Shown in pieces: positions 8,865-61,292 of a stretch of 64,000 nt of DNA. A program made the position numbers and the translations under genes. Position 1 is the first letter of the stretch. The number at the start of each line of letters is the position of its first letter. The notes below the pieces were generated by a model, which was not told the DNA's origin, searched no databases, and was given only the letters and a program-made list of their open reading frames with translations. This DNA comes from Lepraria neglecta (lineage: Eukaryota; Ascomycota; Lecanoromycetes; Lecanorales; Stereocaulaceae), in assembly GCA_033220425.1 (NCBI GenBank), contig CM065646.1:1991501-2055500 (forward strand), given 5' to 3'.

Positions 8865-9836
8865 TGTTGGAAAGACTTCAAAAACGCAGGCCACCTTAGG
8901 GTATACTGATAAAGTGGAGCTAGAAAGGTAATAGATGGATAAGGACACTAAGAACCGATACATCAGAGCGAAGCAAATAGTAGGATATCCAATATCGATT
9001 CATTGAAATACCCTGAAGATTAATATTTAACTTAGTGAGCTCTCCTAGGTGTAGAACCTTCTACATATGCCCTAGAGCCAAGCCTTTACATAGAATAAGC
9101 TTTCCGCATGAAAAGCATGAAACAAGCGTATCGCATAAAACATGATACAAGGCGTATCGCATAAGGCATTAGACAGGCGTACCGCACGGTCCACCGGATG
9201 GCTCATTCGCAGATGGCGATATGGCGATGGATTGCCTATTCGACAGATGGTGAGATGGCACCGGATGGCTCATTCGCAGATGGCGATATGGCATACACTG
9301 CCTATGATGCACATGGCGATATGGCGGCGGATTGCTCATTCGCACATGGCGATATGGCGATGGACTGCCTATTCGACACATGGCGATATGGCACCGGATT
9401 GCCTATTCGCAGATGGCGATATGGCGATGGACTGCCTATTCGACACATGGCGATATGGCACCGGATTACCTATTCGCAGATGGCGATATGGCGGTCAGGT
9501 TGCCTATTCGACAGATGGCGATATGGCGCTGGATTGCCTATTCGCAGATGGCGATATGGCGGCAGGTTGCCTATTCGCACATGGTGATATGGCACCGGAT
9601 GGCTCATTCGCACATGGTGATATGGCGGTCAGGTTGCCTATTCGACACATGGCGATATGGCGGTAGATTGCCTCTTCGTACATGGCGATATGGCGACGAG
9701 TATCCTGGAACCATCTGAAGTATACAAAGCTTCAAAGATTATTTCTGCATCCTAGAGCTGTCTATATAGCCAGCTCTCATGTATACCAAAACCGTTTGCC
9801 ATTATATAAAGCTATAGATAAGCTTATAATTCAACA
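8865..9836 (+). mobile_element. Minisatellite-bearing TG...CA element (solo-LTR-like), family M1
   Basis: The 972-bp unit begins TGTTGGAAAGA and ends ATAATTCAACA, so it has LTR-like TG...CA termini with short inverted TGTTG/CAACA ends. Other copies lie in reverse orientation at 33462-34338 and 40661-41545 and as rearranged pieces at 27857-28853. The centre is a large minisatellite. The 33462 copy has a clean 5-bp duplication, which supports LTR-type integration. No internal coding region of a parent element is present, hence solo-LTR-like. No duplication is visible around this copy. Confidence 0.75.
9195..9700 (+). repeat. 33/34-bp minisatellite (GCCTATTCGCA-GATGGCGATATGG type)
   Basis: About 15 head-to-tail units alternate between 33 bp (with TTCGCAGATGG) and 34 bp (with TTCGACACATGG). 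No unit contains a stop in any forward frame, so three long overlapping frames are open (9142-9666, 9198-9587, 9332-9718). They encode repeats such as MAIWRW, HGDMAPD and PIRRWRYG. These are treated as a property of the repeat, not as genes. Confidence 0.9.
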
Positions 9837-13650: not shown

Positions 13651-13655
13651 TTAGG
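13651..13655. repeat. Target-site duplication TTAGG, left side of E2
   Basis: TTAGG directly precedes the 5' LTR of E2 and is repeated at 26761-26765 directly after its 3' LTR. Joining the flanks restores the continuous E1b sequence. Confidence 0.9.
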
Positions 13656-14041
13656 TGTTAGAACCCTTGGTTCTGACAGGACTGTCCTGTAGGACAAGAT
13701 ACTACAGACAGGACTAGCAGCTGAAGCGATGAGCGCAACGAGCGCCGTGCGCTCATAACGCTCATGGAGTGCTTGGCAGGATTTCTTATGTCTACATATA
13801 CGGGGTTCTGCCCACTGTTTGGAACAGTATATTCAACTTGGCAAACCATTACTTGGTTAATCTTCCTGGTACTCCTTGTACTATACTTTACTAGTTATTA
13901 ATATAGAATGTATTGGTTACCTACGACGAAGAAAGACTGCCATTCTACCTGAGTAACTCCTCTCCCACAGAAGCATAAGACATCTACACCTATACCCGGT
14001 TATCGCACTGTTAGGTAAACGATCGGACGTGGGTCGTAACA
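13656..14041 (+). repeat. 5' LTR of E2 (386 bp)
   Basis: Starts TGTTAGAACCCTTGG and ends GTCGTAACA. It carries one copy of the 42-bp GATGAGCGCAACGAGCGCCG unit, whereas the 3' LTR carries two, which accounts exactly for the 42-bp length difference. A TATA-like CATATACGGGG lies at about 13795. Confidence 0.92.
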
Positions 14042-16203: not shown

Positions 16204-16628
16204 TGTTAGAACCCTCGGTTCTAACAGGACTATCCTGTAGGACAAGACACTACAGACAGGACTAGTAGCTGAAGCGATGAGCGCAACGAGCGCCGTGCGC
16301 TCATGGCGCTCAAGAATGATGAGCGCAATGAGCGCCGTGCGCTCATAACGCTCATAGAGTGCTTGGCAGGATTTCTTATATCTATATATACGGGGCTTTG
16401 CCCGTTGTTAGGAACAGTGTGTTCAACTTAGCAAACCATTACGTGGTTAATCTTCCTGGTACTCCTTGCACTATACTTTACTAGTTATCAATATAGAACG
16501 CATTAGCTACCTACACACGAAGACTGCCATTCTACCTGAGTAACTCCTCTCCTACAGAAGCATAAGATATATACACCTATACCCGATTATCGCACCGTTA
16601 GGTAAACGATCGGACGTGGGTTGTAACA
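16204..16628 (+). repeat. 5' LTR of E3 (425 bp)
   Basis: TGTTAGAACCCTCGG to TTGTAACA. It carries two copies of the 42-bp GATGAGCGCAACGAGCG unit upstream of the TATA-like region. Confidence 0.92.
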
Positions 16629-18328: not shown

Positions 18329-21300
18329 ATGATCTCTTATACTACAGGGAAGCATAAGGAGATTAATACGTTATTCCCCAAACAACAATTATGTTCCGCC
18401 CAATACCACACTCACATTGTTATACTAGTGAATATCGATAGACAGCGGACTATAGCGATGATAGACAGCGGAGCTATAGGAAATTTCATCTTAAGGAACT
18501 TGGTGGACTTAAGCGACCTACCAACTCAGAAGAAGAAATTGTCTTATAAGCTACGCCTGGCCGACGGGTTAGTATTTTCAACAGGAAAAGTAGAGGAGGA
18601 GACACGCTCCCTACCAGTAATAATTCAGCAATACTACGAGGAGATTACATTCGATATAGTAGGGATAGCCACTCACAATATTATTTTGGGAATACCTTGG
18701 TTAAATAAGCATAACCTAGAAATCAACTAGAAGACAAAAGTACTTAAATTCGGACGATCTGGAAACGTCACCAGCATCAGACCTATTAGTCAATAGTGGA
18801 CGATAATAGATAAGAGAAAGAACCGAAGACCGGTCGAAGTATATATTGCCTCATTCTTAAATAATAAGAGCGACTTCCAAGAGAGAAGGCTCGACTCCTT
18901 AGTTACTAGTAAGGGTTAGCGGGATACTAAAGAGAGAGCTATTAAAGGGAAAGACGAACCTTCTGCGATCCCTCGGGAATATAAACAGTAGGTATACCTA
19001 TTCAAGGAAGAGACGAATATAAAAGCGTTGCCTAAGTACTAGCTATAGGATTATGAGATCGAACTCGAAACTGGCAAGGCGCTAATATTTAGACCTATCT
19101 ATATATTATCGGAAAAGGAACTTACTATACTTCGCGGGTACATCGATAAGAACCTTAAGAAAGGATTTATTCGGGAATCTAAATCACTAGCAGGTTATCC
19201 AATCCTCTTCGCGCCGAAGAAGGATAGAAGCTTAAGACTATACGTCGACTATCGAAAGTTGAACGACATTACTATCAAGAATTGTTACCCTTTGCCAAAT
19301 ATCAGCGAGCTACAGGATCGGCTTAGTAAGGCAAAGATATTCACGAAACTAGACCTTAGGGGCGCGTATAATCTAATCCGGATAAAAGAAGGCGAAGAAT
19401 AGAAAACTGCCTTCCGGACTAGATATAGCTACTACGAATATCTAGTAATACCGTTTAGACTCACCAACGTACCAGTAACCTGCCAAGCACTTGTTAATAA
19501 CGTCGTATAAGTATACTTAGATCGAATAGCGATAGCGTACCTTGACGATATCTTGATCTATTCTGAGAACAAGGAAGAATATATCAAGCATATACAGGAC
19601 GTTATCGAATGCCTGTCGTAAGCGGGACTTCTCCTTAAACCGGAAAAGTGCGAGTTTCACAGGGACTCTGTTAAGTTCCTAGGATTTATAGTTAGTACTA
19701 AAGGTATTAGTATAAGCCTAGAAAAGATTAAAGCTATAGCGGAATAGCCTATACTACAAGACGTCAAAGTAGTGCAAAGTTTCTTAGGATTTACTAACTT
19801 TAACAGGAAGTTTATTAAAGGCTACTCAAAGAAAGTACTTCTACTTATAGATATCACTAAGAAAGATATCGGATTCATATAGGGACAAGAATAATAAAAG
19901 TCGTTTGACACGTTGAAAAAAGCATGTACGGATCTACCAGTACTCTGTACCTTTTAAGCTAACGAACCGGCTCGTATTAAAATAGATGCCTTAGATCTCG
20001 TAATAGGAGTATACCTTTATTAAATAAAGGACCAAAAGTGGTATCTAGTTACCTACTTTTTACGAAAAATGTTAGCAGTAGAATAGAACTATGATATATA
20101 CGATAAAGAACTACTTGCCGTAGTATATACACTTTAAAATTAGAGAGTATACGTAGAAAGCTACTCAGATCTAACTATCTTTATAGATTATAAAAATCTT
20201 CTTAATTTTATAACAACGAAAGAATTAAATAGAAGATAAGTTAGATAGTTAGAACTACTTAGATAATACAAGTTCAAGATAACCTATACCCTAGGAAAAG
20301 ATAATGGTTGAGTAGATACGCTTAGCAGGCGATCGGACTATATAGAAGAAAAGAACGTTACGGAACGACCAATCCTAAAACGAGAAGCCGATGGATTATT
20401 GGTACTATACCAGGCATTAGTAATGACCCTTCGTATATCAGGACCTGATATAACTAACAGAATCGTAAAGGCCTACAACAACGATACATTTGCAACAAAG
20501 CTATAATAGGATCAGCCGGATTTAGTATTACTTAGATATCAAGAGAGAACTTACTTACCTGATATATACGTTGAAGAAGTGATTAGAGATTACTACGACG
20601 ACCCTTTATAAGGTCACCCTGGAGTCTCTAAGATAATGGAACTCCTAGGACGAGGATACGCAGCGCCGAAACTTCGGACGCGCGTTGAACAATATATTAA
20701 GGAATGTATTCAATACCAGCAGAACAAGTCTGCACGATACGCCAAGTACGGGCAAATTCAGTTTGCGCCTGTACCAGAATCACTATAGGATGATGTTATA
20801 ATGGACTTTGTAGTTAAGCTACTACCTTTGAAGGATCCAGCTACGCAGGACACCTTCGATTCAATTATAGTTATTATGGATAAACTCACGAAGTATATAA
20901 TTATAATACCGTTCAAGGAAATATATAAAGTAGATTAATTGGCCTTTGTACTATTGGACAAGCTGATAAGGGATTATAGTATACCTAAGTCGATAATATC
21001 CGACAGAGACAAGTTGTTCACTTCTAACTACTGGAGAACGCTAATCGTAGCGATTAGAACTAAACTTCGGATGTTAACTATGTACTATCTATAGACTGAT
21101 AGATAAATAGAATGTGCAAACTAAATAATGGAAGTATACTTAAGATATTATATGAACCTGAAACAAGATAACTAGGTTTTACTACTTCTAATGGTATAAC
21201 TAGCGTATAATAATAAAAGGTCAGATATAATAGGCCTGATACTATTCTTTACCAATCACGGAAAGGATATAAACATATTTCTATATCCTAGAGAAGGACC

Positions 21301-21790
21301 TAACGCAGAAAAAGCCTTAGTTAAGGTAGAAGAGCTAAAAAATTTGTATAAAGATATATAAAAGATAATTAAGAGCTTAAATAATAAGTTGAAGGAATAG
21401 ATTAATAGTAGAAGAAAGAATATTCCTCAGCTTAAAGAGGGGGATAAAGTATACCTCCTAATAAAGAATATAAAGATAATGAGACTAAGCAAGAAATTAG
21501 ATTACGTTAAGGTCGGACTATTCTTGATTAAGAAGGTAAAAGGGGCCGTTAACTATAAACTCGAGCTTCTACCCGACGCTAAGGTATATCTAGTATTCTA
21601 TATCTTACTTCTAGAGCTAGCAGACTCTAATATACTACTCTAAGAAACGTTTTATTATAACGTTAAGGAAGAAATAGAGTATAAGGTCGAGAGGATCCTA
21701 GATAGAAGAAATTAGTTCTATCTAGTTAAATAGAAAGGGTATAACGAAACGGAAAGTACCTGGGAACCTCTTAAGAACCTTGCGGGGAAT
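18329..21790 (+). pseudogene. E3 protease-RT-RNase H-integrase-chromodomain pol, RIP-degraded
   Basis: Protease is open at 18329-18730 with catalytic IDSG at about 18461. Reverse transcriptase spans about 19075-19720, with the LDLRGAYN segment and an intact YLDDILIYS box at about 19538. RNase H lies at about 19970-20340. The integrase zinc-binding GHPG is at about 20610 and the core runs from MDFVVK (20801) through SDRDKLFTSNYW (20999). A basic LKEGDKVYLL stretch is at about 21430. The chromodomain-like end (KGYNETESTWEPL) lies at about 21735. More than 30 in-frame TAG/TAA codons stand where Trp or Gln is expected. Confidence 0.88.
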
Positions 21791-22388
21791 TGCAGGGAAC
21801 GCCTATAAGAGTTTTATCGGAGATAAGAGAAGACTAGTCGAAACTCTCGGGGCCCTCTAGGCCGGGGAGGAGGTCGAACTACTCAGAGCCGACGTTGAAT
21901 ATTAAACCGTCAGGGGTATTAGAAGGAAGACCCTTATCCTTCTCTAACTCCTTAATGTTCTATAACTCGCGCTTAACCAACTTTCTCTCTTTATCCTAAA
22001 CTCGATCGAATTGCAATTAAAGGCGTATAAGTTTTGCCTACATTTCTTTTATTTCTGACCAAGTATCGTCACGAACTTTCTTAATACGACATATCTCGTC
22101 GACGGATATAACTAGGTTATACTTCTTGCCCGCGGTAATATAGTTAGAATAACGATCCGAACGGGCGCCCACTAAGTATTACCTATTGCCCTTCGTATAG
22201 AAAGTATAAGGATATATTATAAATCTAGATAATTTACTAGAGAGCTCTTTACGGCGAATGATAGGATCTTTAGAATAGATATTTCGACGAGGAGGTATAA
22301 AGGATAGATAGTTTCTCAGGACAAGAAATCTGGAGGAGGGGGCTAGTATTAGAACCCTCGGTTCTAACAGGACTGTCCTGTAGGACAA
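21791..22388 (-). pseudogene. E3 antisense ORF with Zn2Cys6-like cysteine array (all Cys mutated)
   Basis: On the minus strand, the space between pol and the 3' LTR reads as one protein-like frame shared with E2 and E1b. It has an N-terminal FLVLRNYLSFIPPRRN segment and then a 90-nt array at 22119-22208. Six positions spaced as x2-x6-x8-x2-x6 are all Tyr here, where E1b has mostly Cys. A charged helical region follows. One in-frame TAA lies inside the array. The frame runs into the LTR on its 5' side without an ATG, so its start and promoter are unknown. Confidence 0.6.
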
Positions 22389-22771
22389 GATACTATAGAC
22401 AGGACTAGCAGCTGAAGCGATGAGCGCAACGAGCGCCGTGCGCTCATAGCGCTCAAGAATGATAAGCGTAATGAGCGCCGTGCGCTCATAACGCTCATAG
22501 AGTGCTTGGCAGGATTTCTTATGTCTATATATACGGGGCTTTGCCCGTTGTTAGGAACAGTATATTCAACTTAGCAAACCATTACGTAGTTAATCTTCCT
22601 GGTACTCCTTGCACTATACTTTACTAGTTATCAACATAGAACGCATTGGCTACCTACACACGAAGACTGCCATTCTACCTGAGTGACTCCTCTCCCACAG
22701 AAGCATAAGATATATACACCCATACCCGATTATCGCACCGTTAGGTAAACGATCGGACGTGGGTCGTAACA
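22347..22771 (+). repeat. 3' LTR of E3 (425 bp)
   Basis: Starts TATTAGAACCC (a G-to-A change of TGTTAG) and ends GTCGTAACA. Same length and same two 42-bp units as the 5' LTR. Differences between the two LTRs are mainly C-to-T and G-to-A, as RIP produces. Confidence 0.92.
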
Positions 22772-25700
22772 TTAGTCAATAGTAGACGATAATAGATAAG
22801 AGAAAGAACCGAAGACCGGTCGAAGTATATATTGCTTTATTCTTAAATAATAAGAGTGACTTCTAAGAGAGAAGGCTCGACTCCTTAGTTACTAGTAAAG
22901 GTTAGCGGGATACTAAAGAGAGAGCTATTAAAGGAAGAGACGAACCTTCTATAATCCCTCGGGAATATAAACGGTAGGTATACCTATTCAAGGAAGAGAC
23001 GAGCGTAAAAGCGTTGCCTAAGTACTAGCTATAGGATTATAAGATCGAACTCGAACCTGGTAAGGTGCCGATATTTAGACCTATATATATATTATCGGAG
23101 AAGGAACTTACTATACTTCGCGGGTATATCGACGAGAACCTTAAGAAGGGATTTATTCGGGAATCTAAATTACTAGTAGGTTATCTAATCCTCTTCGCGC
23201 TAAAGAAGGATAGGAGCTTAAGACTATATATCGACTATCGAAAGTTGAACGATATTATAATCAAGAATAGGTATCCTTTGCCAAATATTAGCGAGCTATA
23301 GGATTAGCTCAGCAAGGCAAAGATATTCACGAAACTAGACCTTAGAGGTATATATAATCTAATTCGGATAAAGGAAGGCGAAGAATAGAAAACTGCCTTT
23401 CGAACCAGATATAGCTACTATAAGTACCTAGTAATACTATTTGGACTCACCAACGCACCAGTAACCTGCTAAGTACTTATTAATAACGTCGTATAAGTAT
23501 ACTTAGATTGAACAGCGATAGCGTACCTCGATAATATCTTGATCTACTCTAAGAAAAAGGAAGAATACGTTAAGTATATATAGGACGTTATTAAATGCCT
23601 GTTATAAGCGGGACTTCTCCTTAAACCGGAAAAGTGCGAATTTTATAGGGACTCTGTTAAGTTCCTAGGATTTATAGTTAGTATAAAAGGTATTAGTATA
23701 AGCCTAGAGAAGATTAAAGCTATAGCGGAATAGCCTATACTACAGGACGTTAAAGTAGTATAAAGTTTCTTAGGATTCGCTAACTTTAACAGGAAGTTCA
23801 TTAAGGGCTACTTAAAGAAAGTACTTCTACTTACAGATATTATAAAGAAAGATATCGGATTTATATAGGGATAAGAATAATAGAGGTCGTTTAATACGTT
23901 AAAAAAAGTATGTGCGGATCTACTAGTACTCTGTACCTTTTAAGCTAACGAACCGGCTCGTATCGAAATAGACGCCTCGGATCTTATAATAGGAGTATAC
24001 CTTTATTAAATAAAGGACTAAAAGTAGTATCTAGTTACCTACTTTTTATAAAAAATGTTAGTAGTAGAATAGAACTATAATATATACAACAAAGAACTAC
24101 TTACTATAGTATATATACTTTAGAATTAGAGAGTATATATAGAAAGCTACTCGGACCTAACTATCTTTACGGATTATAAGAATCTTCTTAACTTTATAAT
24201 AACGAAAGAGCTAAATAGAAGATAAGTTAGATAGTTAGAACTACTCAGATAATATAAGTTCAAGATAACCTATACCCTAGGAAAAGATAATGGTCGAGTA
24301 GATACGCTTAGTAGGCGATCGGACTATATAGAAGAAAAGAATATTACGGAACGACCAATCCTAAAACGAGAAGCCGATGGATCATTGGTACTATATTAGG
24401 CATTAGTAATGACCCTTCATATATTAGGACCTGATATAACTGATAGGATCGTAAAGGCCTATAATAACGATATATTCGTAACAAAGCTAAGACAGGATTA
24501 ACCGGATTTAGTATTACTCAAATATCAGGATAAAACTTACTTGCCCGATATATGCGTTGAAGAAGTGATTAGGGATCACTACGATGACCTATTATAAGGT
24601 TACCCTGGAGTGTCTAAAACTATAGAGCTCCTAGGACGAGAATATGTAGCGCCGAAACTTCGGACACGCGTTAAACAATATATTAAGGAATGTATCTAGT
24701 GTCAGCAAAACAAAGCGGCACGATACGCCAAGTACGGGTAAATTCAGTTTGCGCCTATACCAGAGTTACTATAGGATAATATTATAATGGATTTTATAGT
24801 TAAACTACTACCTTCGAAGGATCCAGCTATGTAGGATACCTTCGATTCAATTATAGTTATTATAGATAAACTTACGAAGTATATAATTATAATACCTTTT
24901 AAAGAAACGTATAAAGTAGATTAGTTAGCCTTTATATTACTCGATAAGTTAATAAGGGATTATGGTATACCTAAGTCGATAACATCCGATAGAGACAAGT
25001 TGTTCACTTCTAACTACTAGAGAACGCTGATTACAGTAATTAGAACTAAACTTCGGATGTTAACGGTATACTATCTATAGACTAATAGATAAACGGAACG
25101 TGCAAATTAAATAATAGAAGTATACCTAAGATACTATATAAACCTAAAATAAGATAACTGGGTTTTACTACTTCTAATAGTATAACTGGCGTATAATAAT
25201 AAAAGGTCAGACACGACAGGTCTAACACTATTCTTTACTAACTACAGGAAGAATATAAATATATTTCTATAACCTAGGGAAGGACCTAACGCAGAAAAAG
25301 CCTTAGTAAAGGTAGAAGAGCTGAAGAATTTGTATAAGGCTATATAAAAGATAATTGAAAGCTTAAATAATAAGTTAAAGGGATAAATCGATAGTAGAAG
25401 AAAGAATGTTCCTCAGCTTAAAGAGGGGGATAAAGTATACCTCCTAATAAAGAATATAAAGATAACGAGACCAAGCAAGAAACTAGATTATATTAAGGTC
25501 GGACTATTCTTGATTAAGAAGGTAAAGGGGGCCGTTAACTATAAACTCGAGCTTCTACCTGACGCTAAGGTATATCCGGTATTCTATATCTTACTTCTAG
25601 AGCTAGCAGACTCTAATATACTACTCTAAGAAACGTTCTATTATAACGTTAAGGAAGAAATAGAGTATAAGGTCGAGAGGATCCTAGATAGAAGAAATTA

Positions 25701-25790
25701 GTTCTATCTGGTTAAATAGAAAGGGTATAACGAAACGGAAAGTACCTAGGAACCTCTTAGGAACCTTGCGGGGAATTACGGGGAACGCCT
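22772..25790 (+). pseudogene. E2 pol (RT, RNase H, integrase, chromodomain), RIP-degraded
   Basis: Continues the E2 frame after the E3 insertion. The longest open piece (23065-23301) is the start of reverse transcriptase, from [14 protein letters not shown] to a YPLPNISEL segment. The catalytic box at about 23523 reads YLDN, so one essential aspartate is lost. RNase H, integrase (SDRDKLFTSNY at about 24987) and the chromodomain-like end (about 25725-25760) follow with frequent TAG/TAA. Confidence 0.88.
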
Positions 25791-26372
25791 ATAAGAGTTT
25801 TATCGGAGATAAGAGAAGACCAGTTGAAACTCTCAGGGCCCTCTAGGCCGGGGAGGAGGTCGAACTGCTCGGAGCCGACGTTAAATATTAAACCGTCAGG
25901 AGTATTAGAAGGAAGGTTCTTATCCTTCTCTAACTCCTTAATATTCTATAGCTCGCGCTTAACTAACTTTCTCTCTTTATCCTAAACTCGATCGAATTAC
26001 GATTAAAGGCGTATAAGCTTCGCCTGCGTTTCTTTTATTTCTAACTAAGTATTATCGCGTACTTTCTTAATACGACGTATCTTGTCGACGGATATAACTA
26101 GGTTATACTTCTTGCCCGCAGCAATATAGTTGGAACAATGATCTGAACGGACACCTACTAAGCATTACCTATTGCCCTTCGTATAGAGAGTATAAGGACG
26201 TATTACGAATCTAGATAATTTACTAGAGAGTTCTTTGCGGTGAACGATAGGATCTTTAGAACGGATATTTCGACGAGGAGGTATAAAGGATAGATAGTTT
26301 CTCGGGACGAGAAATCTGGAGGAGGGGGCTAGTGTTAGAACCCTTGGTTCTGACAGGACTGTCCTGTAGGAC
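25791..26372 (-). pseudogene. E2 antisense ORF with Zn2Cys6-like cysteine array
   Basis: Same antisense frame as in E3 and E1b. The longest open piece is 26165-26374 (contains RFLVPRNYLSFIPPRR). The cysteine array occupies 26105-26194 and reads Y, Y, C, C, Y, Y at the six ligand positions with spacing 2-6-8-2-6 and one in-frame TAA. A charged, potentially coiled-coil tail follows. Amino-acid identity with the E1b frame is visible despite the two LTRs being unrelated, so protein-level conservation is likely. Confidence 0.6.
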
Positions 26373-26760
26373 AAGATACTACAGACAGGACTAGCAGCTG
26401 AAGCGATGAGCGTAACGAGCGCCGTGCGCTTATAGCGCTCAAGAATGATGAGCGCAATGAGCGCCGTGCGCTCATAACGCTCATGGAGTGCTTGGCAGGA
26501 TTTCTTATGTCTACATATACGGGGTTCTGCCCACTGTTTGGAACAGTGTGTTCAACTTGGCAAACCATTACTTGGTTAATCTTCCTGGTACTCCTTGCAC
26601 TATACTTTACTAGTTATCAATATAGAACGTATTGGTTACCTACGACGAAGAAAGACTGCCATTCTACCTGAGTGACTCCTCTCCCACAGAAGCATAAGAC
26701 ATCTACACCCATACCCGGTTATCGCACCGTTAGGTAAACGATCGGACGTGGGTCGTAACA
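26333..26760 (+). repeat. 3' LTR of E2 (428 bp)
   Basis: TGTTAGAACCCTTGG to GTCGTAACA, preceded by a purine-rich tract (GGAGGAGGGGGCTAG) that fits a polypurine tract. Two copies of the 42-bp unit. Followed by TTAGG, the right-hand duplication. Confidence 0.92.
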
Positions 26761-26765
26761 TTAGG

Positions 26766-27390
26766 AACCTCCGGAACTGCCAGGACCTTCTATAGGAGTT
26801 CCGGGAACGATCGGGAAGGAGGACCAATCGGTTCCGGCTAGGAAGCCAAATTATTCGGACGAGACGTTGAACATCCAGTTATCAGGAATGCTTAGGATAG
26901 ACCGCTAGTCTTCTTCTAACTCCTATATCTCTCGGTCTACAACCTTCCGTTTTTTATTTTCAAGATATTTATACTATGTCTAAAGACGTATCAGCGTAGT
27001 CTAAAGACGTATGGATTCCTCTATTAATTTTCGTATATAATCCTCGAGCTCTTCGCGCGTGTTTTTTAACTATAACCACGCCTCCTTTCGTTCCGTCTCG
27101 ATATAATATATTTCGAGGGGCGATACTACAAGGTCGTATTTCCTACCGCTGCCCATACAGTTAGAACACCTGTCGGACCCTGCACCTATCAGGTACTGTT
27201 TGCCGCTAGCAACACATCGGGAGCACGGCCGCATAACAACTTCGTTTAGCTCACTGGCCAGCACCGTTCGGCGGACGGTTAGTTTATCTAAACGTTTAGT
27301 ACGTCGGGGTAGTATAAAGGATAGATAGTTTCTCGGGACGAGATATCTGGGAGAGGGAGCTAATGTTACGATCAGGAAATATAATCAGGG
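26766..27390 (-). pseudogene. E1b antisense ORF with best-preserved Zn2Cys6-like array
   Basis: The minus-strand frame begins in or near the 3' LTR and reads YLVPRNYLSFILPRR, then a basic linker. The cysteine array at 27136-27225 reads C-S-R-C, six residues, Y, eight residues, C-S-N-C, six residues, Y. Allowing TGC to TAC changes at the third and sixth positions, this is C-x2-C-x6-C-x8-C-x2-C-x6-C, within the published Zn2Cys6 consensus (fungal Gal4-type). A 65-codon stretch is open at 27070-27264. Downstream codons form a Glu/Lys/Leu-rich, coiled-coil-like stretch interrupted by TAG, ending in a Gly/Pro/Ser-rich tail at 26766. Function is unknown. Confidence 0.65.
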
Positions 27391-27856
27391 ATACGCTCAT
27401 AGAGCGTAGCGCCTGTTATGGTTCGAGTCGACGAATCGGTGTCCGACTCGGACAGACCCTGAAGGCTTGGTATCTTAAGCGATAAGCGCAGTAGTCGCAA
27501 TGAGCGCAGATACGATCAGTGCGATCAGGACGTCTTGGCATATTAAGCGATAAGTGCAGTGGTCGCAATAAGCGCAGATGCGATCAGTGCGATCAAGAAT
27601 GCTTGGCATGGATTTCGTATGTCTATATATACAGAGCACTGCTCACCACTTGGAGCATCGTGCTCAACTTACTATTCAATTATTTACTATATACAATAGA
27701 TCTCTTAGGCTAGGCACTGAACATATATCATCTGATTATATACCAGACCCGCTTAGCATCACTTGAAGCCTGCTTCACCCTCTTGCTCTGTTGCACCTAT
27801 ATCCCTATTGAGAATCAATCCATATACGATACACGGCACGCGACGTGTTCGTAACA
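27364..27856 (+). repeat. 3' LTR of E1b (493 bp)
   Basis: Starts TGTTACGATCAGG and ends GTTCGTAACA, preceded by a GGGAGAGGGAGC purine tract. It contains two tandem copies of a roughly 61-bp unit (about 27467-27600, CTTAAGCGATAAGCGCAG type) just upstream of ATGCTTGGCATGG and the TATA-like CTATATATACAG. No matching duplication follows. Confidence 0.85.
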
Positions 27857-28853
27857 TTATCCACCTATTACCTTTCTAGCTCTGCTCAGTCAGTATACCC
27901 TCAGGTGGCCTGCGTTTTTGAAATATTTCCAACAATAAGCAATCCGGTGCTATATCGAATAGGCAATCCGCCGCCATATCGCCATGTGTATCATAGGTAG
28001 TGTATACCATATCGCCATCTGCGAATGAGCAATTCGGTGCCACATCGAATAAGCAATCCAGTGCCATATCGCCATGTGCGAATAGGTAATCCGCCGCCAT
28101 ATCGCCCTGTGCATCATAGGTACTGTATACTATATCTCCATCTGCGAATAAACAATCCGGTGCTATATCGCCATGACCAGAATGGGCAATCATGTAGACC
28201 GTGCGGTACGCCTGTCTCATGCTTCATGCGGTACCCCTTGTATCATGTTTTATGCGAAAAGCCTATTCTATATAACGGCTTAGCTATAGGGCATATATAG
28301 AAGGCTCTGCATCTAGGAGAGCTTACTAAGTAAAATATTAATCTTCAGGGTATTTCAATTGATCGATATTAGATATCCTACTATTTGCTTCGCTCTGATG
28401 TATCGGTTCTTAGTGTCCTTATCCACCTATTACCTTTCTAGCTCTAGTATACCCTAAGGTGGCCTGCGTTTTTGAAATCTTTCTAACAGGATTGCCTATT
28501 CGACACACGGCGACATGGCACCGGATGGCTCATTCGCACATGGCGATATAACGGCAGATTGCCTATTCGCACATGTAGCGATATAGCGGCAGGTTGCCTA
28601 TTCGATATATGGTGATATGGCACCGGATAGCTCATTCGCAGATGGCGATATGACGGCGGGTTGCCTATTCGCAGATGGCGACATGGCGGTCTAGTTGCCT
28701 ATTCAATATGGCGATAAGTATCCTAGAACCATCCGAACCATTTAAAGCTTCAAAGATTATTTATACATCCTAGAGCTATCTATATAGCCAGCTCTTATAT
28801 ATACCAAAACCGTTGCTATTAAATAAAGCTATAGATAGGCTTATAATTCAACA
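27857..28853. mobile_element. Rearranged M1 solo-LTR-like copies, partly inverted
   Basis: Three pieces of the M1 family lie end to end: 27857-27934 (reverse, the CTTTCC-AACA end), 27935-28488 (reverse, minisatellite plus end), and 28489-28853 (forward, minisatellite to ATAATTCAACA). The reverse and forward minisatellite arms form an imperfect inverted repeat around 28488. Open frames in the minisatellite on both strands (27876-28220 and 28025-28300) are artefacts of the stop-free repeat. Confidence 0.65.
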
Positions 28854-29341: not shown

Positions 29342-29478
29342 TGTTGGAAAGATTTCAAAAACGCAGGCCACTTTAGGATATACTGACTGAGCAGAGCTAG
29401 AAAGGTAATAGGTGGATAAGGATACTAAGAACCGATACATCAGAGCGAAGCAAATAGTAGGATATCTAATATCGATTC
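29342..29478 (+). mobile_element. M1 element fragment, interrupted by M2
   Basis: The first 137 bp of the M1 family (TGTTGGAAAGATTTC onward, through the ATCAGAGCGAAGCAAATAG motif), broken at 29478 by the start of an M2 element. Confidence 0.65.
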
Positions 29479-30002
29479 TGTTAGCGCAGGCCACCTTGGG
29501 GTATGCTGACTAAGCAGAGCTAGAAAGGTGATTGGAAGGGTAAAGGTACTATGATCGATCTGTCAGAGCGAAGTAACTAGTAGAATATCCGATGTCAATC
29601 GGTTGAGATGAATATTTGACTTGCTGAGTTCTCCTTGGTGCAGGACTATCTATATATGCCCTATAGCCAAGCCATCGCATAAAACATGATACAAGGCGTA
29701 TCGCACAAAACATGATACAAGGCGTATCGCATGAAGCATGATACAAGGCGTATCGCATGAAGCATGATACAAGGCGTATCGCATGAAACATGATACAAGG
29801 CTTATCGCATGAAAAGCATGAAACAGTCGCATCGCAGAAAGCATGAAAACAGGCTCATTGCAAAAATGCCTTGGAACCATCCGAGACATGCAAATTTTTC
29901 CAACTCATCATTCCTGCCACTCAGGACTGTGTTGAACAGCCAGCTCTCATATGTGCCAGCACTTTGTCACCAGATAAAGCTATGTAAGCTTATAATTCAA
30001 CA
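29479..30002 (+). mobile_element. TG...CA solo-LTR-like element, family M2
   Basis: 524 bp from TGTTAGCGCAGGCC to ATAATTCAACA. It is related to M1 at both ends but carries a different internal tandem repeat: a 26-bp unit of the CATGATACAAGGCGTATCG type, about five copies at 29683-29810. A reverse copy with a 5-bp duplication lies at 30998-31530. Minus-strand open frames through the repeat (29549-29791, 29650-29889) are not accepted as genes. Confidence 0.75.
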
Positions 30003-30144
30003 ATCGTATTACTTCTCCTCTACCTCTAATCGGCCCCCGCCCTAAAGCAACCCGTTCCTTTAGGGCTCCGCACCCTAATGGATTCTGCATCTCAGTGACC
30101 GTTTTTCAACATCCACCTTATTCTAGGGACTACTCAACCCCATA

Positions 30145-32218
30145 ATGTCCGAGGCCTACCAGGAGCGTGAATGTCGCATTACTAACGCTGTTAATGCGTA
30201 CTGCGAAGGTTTCTACTCCAACGCCGCCCAGGCCGCCACGGCGTTCCAGGTCGAAGCGCGTACAGTCCGAAGGCGCTGTGCAGGCGTTGGATCCAGGTCT
30301 ACACGGGTACCAGCCAACCGGAGGCTTAACCCGGCTACTGAGCAGGCAATAGTGGAATAGATAGAGCGTCTGGATCGAATGGGGGCGTCCCCAAGGCCTG
30401 GAATGTTGACGTCTACCGCGAATTACTTCCTGAATCTAGGGCTCCCTACGCGAAAGCTTCAAGTCGGTCCAGACTGGACTACACGGTTTATTAACCGCCA
30501 TAAGCAGCTATTCAAGCGTCGCCAGACACCATTAGCTGCTGCCCGAAAGAACGCCCACTCGCCTAAAGACACAGCTGCCTGGTTCGAGCGCTTTAGGGAC
30601 GCCTGTAGGGAGGTGGGCGTCCAAATACAAGATATCTACAATTTCGACGAGATAGGGTTCCGTATTGGGTGCGGTAGAGGCCATACCGTAATAACCCTCC
30701 ATAAGAAGAAGCAAATACGCCTAATCGACGCCGAAAATCGGGACTATATTACCTCTGTTGAGTGTGTTTCGGCGGATGGTTGGGTTATCCCCTCGATGCT
30801 AATTCTGGCCAGGGTCAATATTTTGGAAAAATGGGCCCTAAAGAATCGTATTCCGGGGGCTACGCTATTAGGTGTAAGCCCTACTGGATACACCAATGAT
30901 GAGCTTTCTATGGAGTGGATTCGCCATTTCGATATACATACTGCTGGCCGCCGGAGAGGCGCCTGGAGACTGCTCCTTATGGACGGCTGCGGGGCCCTGT
31001 TGAATTATAAGCTTACATAGCTTTATCTGGTGACAAAGTGCTGGCACATATGAGAGCTGGCTGTTCAACACAGTCCTGAGAGGCAGGAATGATGAGTTGG
31101 AAAAGTTTGCATGTCTCGGATGGTTCCAAGGCATTTTCGCAGTGAGCCTGTTTTCACCAGTTTCATACTTTTCATGCGATAAGCCGTGTATCATCTTTCA
31201 TGCGATAAGCCGTGTATCATCTTTCATGCGATAAGCCGTGTATCATCTTTCATGCGATAAGCCTTGTATCATGTTTCATGCGATACGCCTTGTATCATGT
31301 TTTATGCGATACGCCTGTTTCATACTTTATGCGATGGCTTGGCTATGGGTCATATATAGAGAGTTCTGCACCAAGGAGAACTGAGCAAGTCAAATATTCG
31401 TCTCAACCGATTGACATCGGATATTCTACTAGTTACTTCGCTCTGACAGATCGATCATAGTACCTTTACCCTTCCAATCACCTTTCTAGCTCTGCTTAGT
31501 CAGCATACCCCAAGGTGGCCTGCGCTAACAGGCCCATATGACCTGGGAATTCATGGACTATTGCAACACCAATAAGATCAAGTTAGTGCTACTTCCAGCA
31601 CACGCTACGCACTTCCTCCAGCCCCTAGACGTCGGAATTTTCCAGCCGTTTAAGTACTAGCACGCCGAAGGCGTTGATAAAGCAATGCGCTTAGGCGCCG
31701 AAGATTTTAATAAGCTCGATTTCTTAGACCTATTCCCCCGTATACATATCGAAACGTTTAGGTCGTCTACTATTCAAGGCGCCTGGCGAGCCACTGCGCT
31801 CGTTCCCTATGAGCCAGAGATTGTACTTAGGCACCTACGCGAACAGCAGGTTCAGCGACTTACTACCCCCCCGCCCTCCGAAATAATGGAATGGTCAACC
31901 CCAAAAGGCGCTATTGATGTGATTACTAAGGGCCGGCAGCTACTAGAGTATATGAAGGATGGGGGAAAGGAGCTTATTGAGCCTGGACTCCAGGCGGATG
32001 TTATACGCTATGTGAAAGGCGTTGAGGCTACGGCACTAGCCCGAAAGCAGCTGGAGGATGAGGCGCTAGAGTCAGTACAGTACGCCACTGCTAGGGCTCA
32101 TAAGCGTCTGAAAGCTTGGGATATGCTCCGCAATAAGGAACGCCTGGTAGCTAATAAATTAGAGGCTATTCGACGTGCGCAGTATATAGCTACAGCTAAG
32201 AAGGCATCAAAAAAATGA
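30145..32218 (+). pseudogene. pogo/Fot1-type transposase, disrupted
   Basis: DDE superfamily transposase that would cut and paste the transposon via its inverted repeats. The first ATG frame runs from 30145 with an N-terminal helix-turn-helix (SNAAQAATAF..ARTVRRR) and a CENP-B/Tc5-type HTH (TSTANYFLN..PDWTTRFINRH). It continues to a DDE domain with NFDEIGF, LLMDGCGA and, after the insertion, PAHATHFLQPLDVGIF. An in-frame TAG at 30358-30360 and another at 31658-31660 replace Gln or Trp. The M2 insertion at 30998-31530 plus its duplicated 5 bp adds 538 bp and shifts the frame. Across the empty site the reading is DGCGAHM, the normal motif. The stop lies inside the right inverted repeat. Confidence 0.9.
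30998..31530 (-). mobile_element. M2 solo-LTR-like insertion in the transposase
   Basis: 533 bp from TGTTGAATTATAAGC to GCGCTAACA, reverse orientation relative to the copy at 29479. The 5-bp sequence GGCCC stands on both sides (30993-30997 and 31531-31535), showing genuine integration with a 5-bp duplication. Tandem 26-bp units (CATGCGATAAGCCGTGTATC type) lie at about 31169-31325. The open frame 31212-31460 is part of the repeat. Confidence 0.88.
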
Positions 32219-33461: not shown

Positions 33462-34338
33462 TGTTGAATTATAAGCTTATCTATAGCTTTATATAATGGC
33501 AACGGTTTTGGTATACATAAGAGCTGGCTATGTAGACAGCTCTAGGATGCAGAAATAATCTTTGAAGCTTTGCATGTTTCGGATGGTTCCAGGATACTGG
33601 CCGCCATATCGCCATGTGTCGAATAGGCAACCTGCCGCCATATCGCCATCTGCAACCTGGCCGCCATATCGAATAGGTAATCCGGTGCCATCTCGCCATG
33701 CAGTCCGGTGCCATATCGCCATCTGCGAATAGGCAATCCATCGCCATATCGCCATCTGCCGAATAGGCAGTCCATCACCATATCGCCATCTGCGAATGAG
33801 CCATCCGGTGCAATCTCACCATCTGTCGAATAGGCAATCCATCGCCATATCGCCATCTGCGAATGAGCCATCCGGTGCCATCTCACCATCTGTCGAATAG
33901 GCAATCCATCGCCATATCGCCATCTGCGAATGAGCAATCCGGTGCCATATCGCTATGTGCGAATAGGCAATCCGGTACCATATCGCCATGACCAGAATGG
34001 GCAATCATGTAGACCGTGCGGTACGCCTGTCTCATGCCTCATGCGATACGCCTTGTATCATGTTTTATGCGATACGCTTGTTTCATGCTTTTCATACGGA
34101 AAGCTTATTCTATATAAAGGCTTGGCTCTGGGGCATATGTAGAAGGCTCTACACCTAGAAGAGCTCACTAAGTTAAATATCAATCTTCAGGGTATTTCAA
34201 TGGATCGATATTGGATATCCTACTATTTGCTTCGCTCTGATGTATCGGTTCTTAGTGTCCTTATCCACCTATTACCTTTCTAGCTCTGCTCAGTCAGTAT
34301 ACCCTAAGGTGGCCTGCGTTTTTGAAATCTTTCCAACA
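33462..34338 (-). mobile_element. M1 solo-LTR-like element with 5-bp duplication
   Basis: 877 bp from TGTTGAATTATAAGC to CTTTCCAACA, flanked by GCCTT on both sides (33457-33461 and 34339-34343). Orientation is reverse to the copy at 8865. The central minisatellite has about ten units. Open frames 33481-33747, 33528-33755, 33542-33937 and 33816-34004 are read-throughs of the stop-free repeat. Confidence 0.85.
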
Positions 34339-34689: not shown

Positions 34690-35110
34690 TGTTAGAACCA
34701 GTGGTTCTGACAGGACTGTCCTGTAGGACAAAGTACTACAGACAGGACTAGCAGCTGAAGCGATGAGCGCTGGAGCGCTGAGCGATCAAGCGATCAAGGA
34801 TGATGAGCGCTGGAGCGCTGAGCGATCAAGCGATCAAGGAATGCTTGGCAGGATTTCTTATGTCTACATATACGGGGCTTTGCCCGTTGTTTGGAACAGT
34901 GTGTTCAACTTGGCAAACCATTACGTGGTTAATCTTCCTGGTACTCCTTGCACTATACTTTACTAGTTATCAACATAGAACGCATTGGCTACCTACACAC
35001 GAAGACTGCCATTCTACCTGAGTGACTCCTCTCCCACAGAAGCATAAGATATATACACCCATACCCGATTATCGCACCGTTAGGTAAACGATCGGACGTG
35101 GGTCGTAACA
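34690..35110 (+). mobile_element. Solo LTR of the E2/E3 Gypsy family
   Basis: 421 bp from TGTTAGAACCAGTGG to GTCGTAACA with GTATA on both sides (34685-34689, 35111-35115), so it is a complete solo LTR left by recombination between LTRs. It carries two exact copies of a different repeat unit (GATGAGCGCTGGAGCGCTGAG..., about 40 bp, 34764-34840) in the place where E2 and E3 have the 42-bp unit. It is much less RIP-mutated than the LTRs in the nest. Confidence 0.92.
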
Positions 35111-36418
35111 GTATACTATCCTCTCGGGCCATATAGATAGTCTTATTTAGCCTTACTAACAGTGGCTACTATTATATACCACGCCCTACAGGGTTCGCCT
35201 ACTTCGCATTACCATTAGAGGTCTCCCTACAACGTTGCCCTAGCCATCAACAACGCCATAGTGTTTCCACCCTACTAACCAAAGTACGCGGTATACTGTA
35301 TCTAGTTGCCGCTCCCAGCTGATGACTGCAGGGGAAGACTTGAACTTCCAGGAGGATAGACGTAGTAACCGATCGTACCCCAAGGGTGTCCTGTTTAAAA
35401 GCTAGCAGACTAACACGTCCACTGGTAGAGACCAGCTTCGGGCCACGTCGCCGACACGTGGTAGCCTTTAATCGGATGGTTTTTATAAGCCAATTCCCTT
35501 GTATCTATCGGGCGCGACCCGACGCGTTTCAGTGTAGATAGGCCTATTTCCTAGCTCTTCTAAATGGCTTGTTCCAGCTGGTGACTACGTGGATGGACTT
35601 GAACCATCAGAACGGTGTACACGCTCCTAGCCTCCAGCTAATGACTGCAAGGGGAGACTTGAACCCCCAAAGGTGTAGAACGCGTATAAATGCATCGGTC
35701 GCGAGCTTGTAACCCTCAGCTAATGACTGTGTAGGGAGACTTGAACTCTCAAGGGTATGAAACAGGCTTGCAGCGCCATCCGCCTCCTTCTCTTTCCTCT
35801 GGTACGCGTCAGCGATGGCGAGATGGGAATACTTAACGAGGCCTCCTCCCAGTCCACGAATGGTCTCCTTCCAAAGTTCTTCCTCGGGCTATAAGCTCTA
35901 GCAGGCAAGTGAAAGCTCGTTCGCAAAGGATCTACTCTAGTCCCAATGAAGTTTAGAATGCTTGGCACTACAAGTAAAGAGAAACGTTGCCGCTTTAGCT
36001 AGCCTGGAGGTGAGCAGGGGGTGACAGGACACCTTATTCAGGTAATATACAACCGCAAGCCACGATTTCCTCGCTGATTTTGAGCACAATGGCGAAGTTT
36101 GACGCTCTGAAGCTTTACAAGGTATGAAGTCTACTATAAGCTTGCCCTGCGCTTTTTCTTTGGATGTTAAAATTAGTCAATCTTTCCCAATTGGATAAGG
36201 TTCACAGAGGGCATCGGAGGGAGCCGAGGGAAGGACGCCATTGATCTTCCCCCAAACTCAGTCTGCAGCAACAGAGCACCTTTTTTTTCTCCTTGATTCA
36301 ATTTCCTGTTGCCTTAGCGAACCAGGATTCAAGGTCTATACACACGCACATCTTCTTGTCTTCGCTGGTTTTCATAATTTGGCGCGTATTTTATTTAGAA
36401 TCGGTCTTCATTAACTTT
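35111..36418. other. Boundary region upstream of the HET gene
   Basis: Base composition becomes normal here. Positions 35314-35760 carry tRNA-3'-half-like repeats (separate entry). The remainder up to the HET gene has no gene; the minus-strand frame 35720-35968 lacks support. A T-rich tract (CACCTTTTTTTTCTCC at about 36280) just before the HET reading frame may belong to its promoter or leader. Confidence 0.5.
35314..35760 (-). repeat. Four tRNA-3'-half-like units
   Basis: On the minus strand a motif resembling a tRNA T-arm plus 3' acceptor (for example GGGGGTTCAAGTCTCCCC followed by TTGCAGTCA) occurs four times, at about 35315-35352, 35574-35612, 35634-35672 and 35717-35754. Each is followed by AGCTG or AGCTGA. 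The T-stem bases differ between units but stay paired. No matching D-arm, anticodon arm or 5' acceptor is found, so they are not complete tRNA genes. Confidence 0.5.
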
Positions 36419-40660: not shown

Positions 40661-41545
40661 TGTTGAATTATAAGCTTGTCTATAGCTTTATATAATGGCA
40701 ACGGTTTTGGTATATATGAGAGCTGGCTACGTAGACAGCTCTAGGATGCAGAAATAATCTTTGAAGCTTTGTATAGTTCAGATGGTTCCAGGATACTCGT
40801 CGCCATATCGCCATCTGCGAATAGGCAATCCGGTGCCATCTCGCCATGTGTCGAATAGGCAACCTGCCGCCATATCGTCATCTGCGAATAGGTAACCTGA
40901 CCGCCATATCGCCATGTGCCATATCGCCATGTGCGGATAGGCAATCCGCCGCCATATCGCCATGTGCATCATAGGCAGTGTATGCCATATCGCCATCTGC
41001 GAATGAGCCATCCGGTGCCATCTCACCATCTGTCGAATGAGCAATCCGGTGCCATATCGCCATGTGTCGAATAGGCAATCCATCGCCATATCGCCATGTG
41101 CGGATAGGCAATCCGCCGCCATATCGCCATGTGCGTCATAGGCAGTGTATGCCATATCGCCATCTGCGAATGAGCAATCCGCCGCCATATCGCCATGACC
41201 AGAATGGGCAATCATGTAGACCGTGCGGTACGCCTGTCTCATGCCTCATGCGATACGCCTTGTATCATGTTTTATGCGATACGCTTGTTTCATGCTTTTC
41301 ATGCGGAAAGCTTATTCTATGTAAAGGCTTGGCTCTGGGGCATATATAGAAGGCTCTACACCTAGGAGAGCTTACTAAGTTAAATATTAATCTTCAGGGT
41401 ATTTCAATGAATCGATATTGGATATCCTACTATTTACTTCGCTCTGATGTATCGGTTCTTAGTATCCTTATCCACCTGTTACCTTTCTAGCTCTGCTCAG
41501 TCAGTATACCCTAAGGTGGCCTGCGTTTTTGAAATCTTTCCAACA
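40661..41545 (-). mobile_element. M1 solo-LTR-like element
   Basis: 885 bp from TGTTGAATTATAAGC to CTTTCCAACA, reverse orientation, nearly colinear with 33462-34338 except for the number and order of minisatellite units. No clear duplication at the flanks. Long minus-strand frames 40778-41242, 40878-41111 and others read through the minisatellite and are rejected as genes. Confidence 0.82.
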
Positions 41546-60440: not shown

Positions 60441-60826
60441 TGTCGGCGGAGGATGAGGGCCCCAAGAAGTCGCGAGGAAGAGAGAACGGCGGTTTCGGCG
60501 GACTAATATGGGAATGAAGAAAGCCGAACTTATTTGGTTGGCAGTCCTTTCGCAAAAGCCCAGAGTAGGGGCTCTGATGGTGTTCGGGAGTACAATTGGC
60601 GGTATGGTGAGGATCAGTGGCAATCAGTCCTGAGGAGGTAAGAGGTTTGCGGAAATGGACGAAAAACGTAGAGAAGCACAAGAGGGTGAAGCAAACCTCA
60701 CCGCAGGTCCTTAGTCGACATGGAGAAGAGCGAGGTCAATTAGATCATGACGCTGATTTGGTCAAAGAGACAGTCTTAAAGAATCGAGATTATTATTTAA
60801 TATAATGAAAACACTTGAAGTTCTTT
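60441..60826. other. Spacer between membrane-protein gene and tRNA
   Basis: 386 bp with the promoter of the minus-strand gene. AT-rich just upstream of the tRNA (TTATTATTTAATATAATG), as often seen before fungal tRNA genes. Confidence 0.5.
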
Positions 60827-60917
60827 GACACTTTGGCCGAGTGGTTAAGGCGACAGACTCGAATTTCATTGATATCTGTTTCATTCGTGAGCGCAGGTTC
60901 AAATCCTGCAGGTGTCG
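60827..60917 (+). tRNA. tRNA-Ser (anticodon CGA) with short intron
   Basis: The acceptor stem GACACTT pairs with AGGTGTC. The D-arm is GCCGAGTGGTTAAGGC (A box TGGCCGAGTGG). The anticodon stem ACAGA pairs with TCTGT around the loop CTCGAA, anticodon CGA (decodes UCG). A 10-nt intron TTTCATTGAT follows position 37. The long variable arm with TCATTCGTGA hairpin marks a class II tRNA, as expected for Ser. The T-arm GCAGGTTCAAATCCTGC includes the B box. TTTT follows within 8 bp as pol III terminator. Confidence 0.95.
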
Positions 60918-61292
60918 ATTCTTTTGACTTTTTGGCATTCTGAAGTCCTTGAGTATACGAACTATACGTTTTGGGGATAAAAACGGCCTTGAGAAGGTCA
61001 GAAGTGGGGTTGGGGGTGTGCAGACTTGCTGGAAACGTCAGCGAGTAAAGATCCTTCAAATACTTGGGACAGTAGGATCACGTTTTGTCTCCTCGAATGG
61101 TTTCATTTACGTGTATGTAGGCTAAAAAGGGGAATACTGAGATTTCCATATTGAAGGAATAAACCCTCCACCAGCTTGAACCTTCGAAGGCGGTGCCTAT
61201 TCAGGAATGAAAAACATCGTGGCCATTCATCACACATTGCTTCACATTCCCTCTACTACATATCTCATGCTTAATATCCAAGCGCTCATTCA
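60918..61292. other. Spacer between tRNA and Ybp2-like gene
   Basis: 375 bp. It contains the tRNA terminator and the 3' UTR of the minus-strand gene. The minus-strand frame 60793-61059 runs across the tRNA and is rejected. Confidence 0.5.

Follow-up and report, generated by a model that had tools for sequence, protein, structure and literature searches.

The locus raises the question of whether fungal Gypsy retrotransposons carry, on the strand opposite gag-pol, a cysteine-rich protein gene of their own, and whether the product of such a gene could be a DNA-binding regulator. In the window (the whole stretch of 64,000 nucleotides that was analysed), the original prediction had placed a 90-nt array of six cysteine or tyrosine codons, spaced 2-6-8-2-6, on the minus strand between pol and the 3' LTR of three elements. 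Translation of the minus-strand frames recovered each array where it had been placed and with exactly this spacing, in E1b at 27136-27225, in E2 at 26105-26194 and in E3 at 22119-22208. The key codons are TGC,TGT,TAC,TGT,TGT,TAC in E1b (C,C,Y,C,C,Y), TAT,TAT,TGC,TGT,TAT,TAT in E2 (Y,Y,C,C,Y,Y) and TAT,TAT,TAC,TAT,TAT,TAT in E3 (Y at all six), and it is correct that only TGY or TAY occurs among them. RIP acts at CpA; a C-to-T change made there on the plus strand turns a minus-strand TGY codon into TAY. The array is real, but the feature is longer than had been claimed, with frames of 175-184 codons, all on the minus strand: E1b at 26761-27315 (184 codons plus the terminal stop, ATA where ATG is expected, seven internal stops), E2 at 25757-26284 (175 codons plus stop, ATA at the start, six internal stops) and E3 at 21771-22298 (175 codons plus stop, seven internal stops). 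All three extend from just inside the 3' LTR border to a point opposite the end of pol. Each whole frame contains 7-8 stop codons with the final one included, and a stop at codon 40 interrupts the arrays of both E2 and E3; given the internal stops, none of the three could give the whole protein as it stands. We read the arrays as RIP-damaged remnants of a gene accessory to the Gypsy elements (Metaviridae) of fungi.

With borders set by eye, the 3' LTR of E1 lies at 27364-27856 (approximate), that of E2 at 26333-26760, and an LTR common to E3 (as its 3' LTR) and E2 (as its 5' LTR) at 22347-22771, all on the plus strand. Further LTRs of the E2 type are present at 13655-14041, 16204-16628 and 34690-35113. 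The pol end of E2 (25501-25884, plus strand) shows SH3-like and, in a reading made by eye only, chromodomain-like residues, and it closes with a presumed stop at 25882-25884; a stop at a similar position was seen in most copies whose pol end was read. Among nine pol pieces of relatives, Pfam found SH3_Tf2-1 above its cut-off in three, Integrase_H2C2 above its cut-off in one and rve, under the cut-off, in one, with four pieces giving no match. In E2 the pol end and the antisense frame overlap tail to tail by 128 nt when the presumed stop codon of pol is counted in full. In general, the antisense stop falls about 16 codons past the start of the LVK-KGY motif. The Cys6 array is located past the pol stop.

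The three elements are fewer witnesses than they seem. E2 and E3 form a tandem (18785-26760) with the LTR at 22347-22771 in common, and their internal regions, spaced 3,986 nt apart, show 90% identity along 3,563 nt, so that the two have to be counted as one piece of evidence; the arrays offered as three instances are all present, but those of E2 and E3 are not independent of each other. Similarly, the LTRs of E1b and of E2/E3, which had been called unrelated, are of two types but not wholly unrelated: the 3' LTR of E1 is 74% identical over 109 nt to an E2-type copy at 16324-16430, and one 80-nt repeat family of the window covers both types. The internal region of the E3/E2 tandem is short, as if its 5' part had been lost before the duplication. 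The 3' LTR of E2 directly adjoins the E1 remnant at the antisense stop of E1b (TTA, 26761-26763; region 26740-26800), and E2/E3 therefore seem to have been inserted into the pol end of E1.

Further evidence comes from the rest of the genome. A search of the window's own 42-Mb genome with the E1b frame gave at least 150 matches (the best 150 of 404 candidates were scored), and 40 of these places were retrieved with their flanks. For 20 further loci, outside this match list, an exact copy of the 17-nt inverted repeat was the sole criterion of choice, and in all 20 the antisense frame adjoins the repeat, with one locus (L093) ending ahead of the array and two (L095 and L108) ending ahead of its last position. 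Together with 13 further search loci and the three copies in the window, they make up a set of 76 copies, from which six search loci duplicating fetched ones and L009, which is E1b itself, had been excluded. At the six array positions, 448 of the 451 readable cells hold Cys or Tyr (C 207, Y 241); the other three, two R and one Q, belong to two truncated loci, L093 and L095. All six cysteines are intact in eight of the 76 copies. Such uniformity at the readable cells leads to C-x2-C-x6-C-x8-C-x2-C-x6-C as the ancestral array, altered since by RIP-type change, just as the original prediction had it. A query of the genome with P0004, an intact relative described below, gave at least 163 matches, the best of them 55% identical; among the matches listed, none covered most of the protein free of stops, and the sole stop-free one spanned 92 residues.

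Intact relatives were sought among proteins. A search with a 104-aa frame gave no match (0 of 5 candidates); a longer open frame from another copy, used as the query, found six related proteins, and a profile built from those six, for which the 8,000 best candidates were scored, extended the family to at least 33 proteins with E no higher than 1. The six are among them, and one of the 33, P0033, is a weak match (E 0.05). The six-cysteine spacing is complete in 17 of the 33, 16 of them with x6 and one (P0013) with x8 in the first loop, and the array is absent from the other 16, many of which are fragments. Two proteins of 174 aa from outside this genome, P0004 and P0005, run from Met to the end with the complete layout, and they supply the open antisense frame on which the prediction depended. 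In eight of the 33 (P0001, P0002, P0003, P0007, P0013 and P0025-P0027), the protein continues on its upstream side through translated sequence of the LTR border (RFLVPRN), a sign that these too are located at such a border. The only name in the family belongs to P0028 from Lasallia pustulata, whose UniRef entry begins 'Zn(2)-C6 fungal-type domain-c'. A chance origin of the array is ruled out by the at least 150 genome matches, the at least 33 related proteins and the 448 of 451 cells with C or Y.

The gene, located between pol and the 3' LTR, has about 174-184 codons and encodes a basic N-terminus, the Cys6 array, a heptad-patterned stretch and an acidic tail rich in hydrophobic residues. This anatomy was examined in 13 of the 33 proteins. 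The usual start (MPPxRxKRSSN or similar) is reached in six, which have 8-9 K+R versus 1-3 D+E ahead of the array; P0013 has 5 K+R versus 1 D+E there, and six predictions begin only at the Met adjoining the array. Heptad periodicity was detected in the 55-69 residues after the array in all 13 proteins tested (p 0.005 or less). Their tails contain 5-12 D+E versus 0-3 K+R, that of P0012 being cut short, a composition that may be partly imposed because the tail is encoded opposite the end of pol.

Is the protein itself under selection, or merely the DNA that contains it? RIP yields transitions only, and transversions therefore provide a test of selection that RIP cannot mimic. In an aligned set of 43 copies (the 40 loci and the three in the window), transversion diversity at the first, second and third codon positions was 0.086/0.093/0.210 in the part between start codon and array; within the array it was 0.053/0.057/0.126. 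For 14 representatives, the transversion-only omega-like ratio was 0.38 in the antisense frame (95% codon bootstrap 0.31-0.48) and 0.23 in the array alone (0.12-0.43), intervals that are rough because copy pairs are not independent and the bootstrap was taken over codons only. Four other frames of the same representatives gave 1.24, 1.46, 1.35 and 1.60.

The sixth frame, the mirror frame on the gag-pol strand that has its third positions in common with the antisense frame, needs separate treatment, since its own omega-like ratio is 0.56 (0.47-0.67) and since it has fewer stops per copy than the antisense frame (means of about 5.6 versus 7.1). Among the eight copies with six cysteines, mirror-frame stops are fewer in six, equal in one and more in one. 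One could thus take the antisense frame for the shadow of DNA-level constraint or of a gene that the gag-pol strand encodes. RIP, however, turns Gln and Trp codons into stops, so that stop counts in damaged copies say little. A direct comparison is offered by third-position transversions, which were more frequent where silent in the antisense frame only (0.154) than where silent in the mirror frame only (0.092), a ratio of 1.68 (1.22-2.39) that rises to 4.05 (1.82-11.3) within the array; third-position transitions showed no such difference (0.78, 0.54-1.19). In addition, pol of the locus L034 uses another frame, and where that frame passes opposite the antisense ORF it is unconstrained (1.60); related proteins run from Met to the end in the antisense frame.

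The 40 loci had been picked by protein similarity, and the selection tests were for that reason rerun on loci picked by the inverted repeat alone (17 of the 20, after three truncated ones were dropped, with seven representatives). The results agreed and were somewhat weaker: 0.47 (0.37-0.59) for the antisense frame, 0.32 (0.15-0.57) for the array, 0.61 (0.50-0.75) for the mirror frame, 1.13-1.50 for the other frames, and 1.55 (1.14-2.12) for the third-position ratio. A bias from the choice by protein similarity was accordingly rejected. The shadow of a gag-pol-strand gene was rejected as well, on the third-position tests in both sets and despite the fewer stops of the mirror frame, and we consider it, DNA-level constraint included, extremely improbable. 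Purifying selection beyond that imposed by the sense strand, which the original prediction needed, is thus found, and the antisense frame is, with hardly any room for doubt, a real, selected antisense protein gene. On the sense strand of L034, the mirror frame is open for 115 codons at 2557-2901, opposite the antisense ORF; we judge it a shadow, which would explain its openness only in part. Open frames of 113-115 codons, in one register or another, occur at similar places in L031, L032, L046 and L068.

What kind of protein the gene encodes is a separate matter. The Zn2Cys6 pattern is C-x2-C-x6-C-x(5-12)-C-x2-C-x(6-8)-C, and the spacing of the array, present in 17 of the 33 related proteins, falls within this range. 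To that extent the array does lie within the Gal4-type consensus; membership in the Gal4 family does not follow. Against a Pfam gathering cut-off of 21 bits for Zn_clus, no frame or protein scanned scored above it, the best reaching 19.5 bits (L029) and the others 8-15 bits or no match; the E1b frame had only weak Pfam matches, all below cut-off. The Zn2Cys6 profile run on intact homologues, which the prediction had proposed as a check, went against it, with 8-14 bits or no match for the related proteins scanned. In Gal4, basic residues of the loop between the second and third cysteines contact DNA. Among 28 host Zn2Cys6 domains compared, out of 68 matches in the window's own genome, this loop is basic at +1, +3, +4 and +6 in 24, 24, 28 and 28; in the antisense family the corresponding counts are 6, 3, 2 and 0 of 17, and a basic residue is found instead at +5 in 17 of 17. 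Profile comparison with Zn_clus gave a probability of 65 over 11 columns, in which the first half of the array aligns to the second half of Zn_clus, and one of 40 column-permuted nulls that kept the cysteines scored as high. A sequence search of the PDB found no Gal4-type chain. Plain Zn2Cys6 membership was thus rejected on both the Pfam cut-off and the loop pattern, and given these together with the weak profile similarity we do not file the antisense protein as a Zn2Cys6 member. As judged from its sequence, it may work like one, or it may be a zinc protein with another task.

The same comparison bears on where the array came from and on what it does. Its cysteine spacing resembles that of the 68 host matches, as would be expected if a fragment of a host Zn2Cys6 regulator had been captured and carried along as passenger cargo; but the array is found across divergent elements and has been kept by selection, and the profile similarity to host domains is weak enough to be equalled by one null in 40, so that we hold such a capture to be very unlikely. 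A more serious competitor accepts the gene as real and gives its product no part in reading DNA. The product would be a coiled-coil protein that binds zinc and works through a partner, be it Gag, integrase, RNA or a chromatin protein of the host, in particle assembly, nuclear entry or integration targeting. This would account for the lack of the host basic pattern in the loop between the second and third cysteines and for the fact that eight of the 12 sub-threshold PF00172 matches enter the profile only at positions 16-17 and so leave its first half uncovered, in line with the offset seen in the profile alignment. The other four (P0001, P0003, P0006 and P0018), however, start at positions 1-3 and cover both halves, the protein combines a basic N-terminus and an invariant basic loop residue (17 of 17) with an acidic, hydrophobic tail, and the antisense accessory proteins known from HTLV-1 (HBZ) and Grande are nuclear. 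A partner-binding protein is the main rival to the regulator, and we see it as a possibility to be taken seriously, with the chances clearly against it.

Between the LTR border and the antisense start codon lies a near-invariant segment of 54 nt that holds the inverted repeat TTTCTCG-GGA-CGAGAAA. The repeat is found in E2 at 26298-26314 as an exact TTTCTCGGGACGAGAAA, in E1b at 27329-27345 with one mismatch to it, between the LTR border and the antisense start, and in E3 at 22312-22328 with two mismatches, each a plus-strand G-to-A change. The segment also holds the polypurine tract, with TTTCTCGGGACGAGAAA on the 5' side of the tract on the plus strand. Its transversion diversity by codon position is 0.000/0.003/0.008 (43 copies), and among 2,741 comparison windows of 54 nt over 3.8 kb, the pol end included, it is the least transversion-prone in 13 representatives (0.0028, against 0.0057 for the next distinct one and a median of 0.107), a constancy that may be exaggerated since the query for the loci spanned the segment. 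Transversions begin directly after the antisense start codon. At up to two mismatches the inverted repeat occurs 372 times in the genome, versus six times for a reversed control. On the folded antisense strand it pairs as a hairpin (z -2.3 and -2.2); the sense strand favours a different fold (z -1.4 and -0.9), and a sense-strand RNA hairpin was rejected on that ground. The protein may use the repeat as its operator; alternatively, the repeat may act as a hairpin in the leader of the antisense transcript or belong to the site where plus-strand synthesis is primed. That repeat and frame occur together does not tell these readings apart. The conserved 54 nt, polypurine tract included, may have a role in reverse transcription.

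Another view gives the protein a secondary role and holds that it is the antisense RNA itself that matters most, by forming double-stranded RNA, by quelling or by competing with the sense transcript. The frame overlaps pol convergently, the 5' segment folds as a hairpin on the antisense strand with the z values just given, and a role of this kind has been proposed for plant and retroviral antisense transcripts. Downstream of the start codon, however, selection tracks codons and not DNA, and we regard this view as improbable.

The reading we prefer is that of a regulator. The accessory gene, which occupies the antisense strand from the 3' LTR border to the end of pol and converges with pol over an overlap of about 130 nt, would be transcribed into an mRNA that starts in the 3' LTR. 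The six cysteines of its product would bind two zinc ions, the heptad-patterned helix would form a dimer, and the protein would enter the nucleus and regulate the transcription of the element itself, in a position and with a logic like those of HBZ of HTLV-1; the inverted repeat TTTCTCG-GGA-CGAGAAA near the LTR border would be its candidate site. We give about an even chance to this reading, in which a small nuclear protein, translated from an antisense mRNA begun in the 3' LTR, regulates its own element as a dimer. We suggest more tentatively a specific version, in which a zinc-cluster transcription factor, a non-canonical Zn2Cys6 of two similar half-sites, evolved within the element and its dimer, on the inverted repeat, would set the activity or targeting of the element, as a fungal counterpart of HBZ that has its own operator and possibly acts on host genes too. 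Of the DNA-binding regulator first proposed for the antisense strand, the selected protein gene stands, and the DNA binding is only partly supported.

Some precedents for such a gene exist. The gene brtn of Boty-like Gypsy elements in Botrytis cinerea was reportedly named by Zhao et al. 2011 (Virology 417:248). Like the gene described here, brtn belongs to a fungal Gypsy element and occupies the antisense strand of the interval from pol to the 3' LTR. The gag-pol of the Boty-like elements carries a CHROMO domain (PMC4227169). Antisense genes at this position are already known, brtn in the fungal Boty among them (PMC8365987, PMC4227169). In plants, antisense additional ORFs are described for Gypsy elements, namely Grande gene23, RIRE2 and Retand TRP28/PF04195 (PMC7264820, PMC11963269); those of Retand are mostly TRP28, with a suggested DNA binding (PMC11963269). 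They share the place and orientation of the fungal gene, and some are nuclear or predicted to bind DNA, yet the proteins are different and the word 'zinc' is absent from the main texts of both sources (PMC7264820, PMC11963269). The region between pol and the 3' LTR of Retand, unlike the one described here, is several kb long (PMC11963269). With the antisense additional ORFs of this position (aORF-3R) the present gene shares its orientation and its place past pol, and it shows coding-type conservation in many copies.

HBZ of HTLV-1 is a transcription-factor-like protein with an activation domain and a dimer helix that damps the 5' LTR of its own element (PMC10186651). It, too, is the product of an antisense gene and is read from the 3' LTR (PMC10186651), a start that is proposed here for the fungal gene. 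HBZ is a bZIP protein, whereas the antisense family has the Cys6 array, and a Pfam scan of 22 antisense-family proteins gave no bZIP match. Gal4-type regulators (PF00172) share with the family six cysteines at permitted spacing followed by a heptad-patterned stretch, and differ from it in that the family stays below the Pfam cut-off, has other basic residues in the loop and consists of a whole protein of only about 174 aa. In the literature searched, we found no report of a fungal antisense Zn2Cys6 gene, and no related terms were seen in the accessible part of a survey of fungal LTR elements (PMC3248453). Neither the zinc-cluster-like family nor the near-invariant 54-nt segment with its inverted repeat was found in print in that literature. 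If the regulator reading is true, an abundant class of fungal retroelements has an accessory gene resembling a DNA regulator at the position where HBZ and the plant antisense genes also sit, and the inverted repeat beside the gene makes self-regulation directly testable. The protein would be a divergent relative or a mimic of a large family of fungal regulators, and annotation can mistake it for a host gene, as the host-like UniRef name of one relative illustrates.

The window contains several other features. An Rfam scan of the window returned tRNA only, and a tRNA-Ser (cga) of 93 nt lies at 60826-60918. Arrays of 33-34-nt units (CACATGGCGATATGGC and similar) occur at 9192-9711, 27940-28704, 33700-34006 and 40792-41213, in both orientations and with closely matching flanks. 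A foldback-like structure occupies 29478-31531, with arms at 29478-29693 and 31316-31531 that are 96% complementary; 26-nt tandem units are found near each arm, and a 213-aa open frame (30379-31020) lies between the two.
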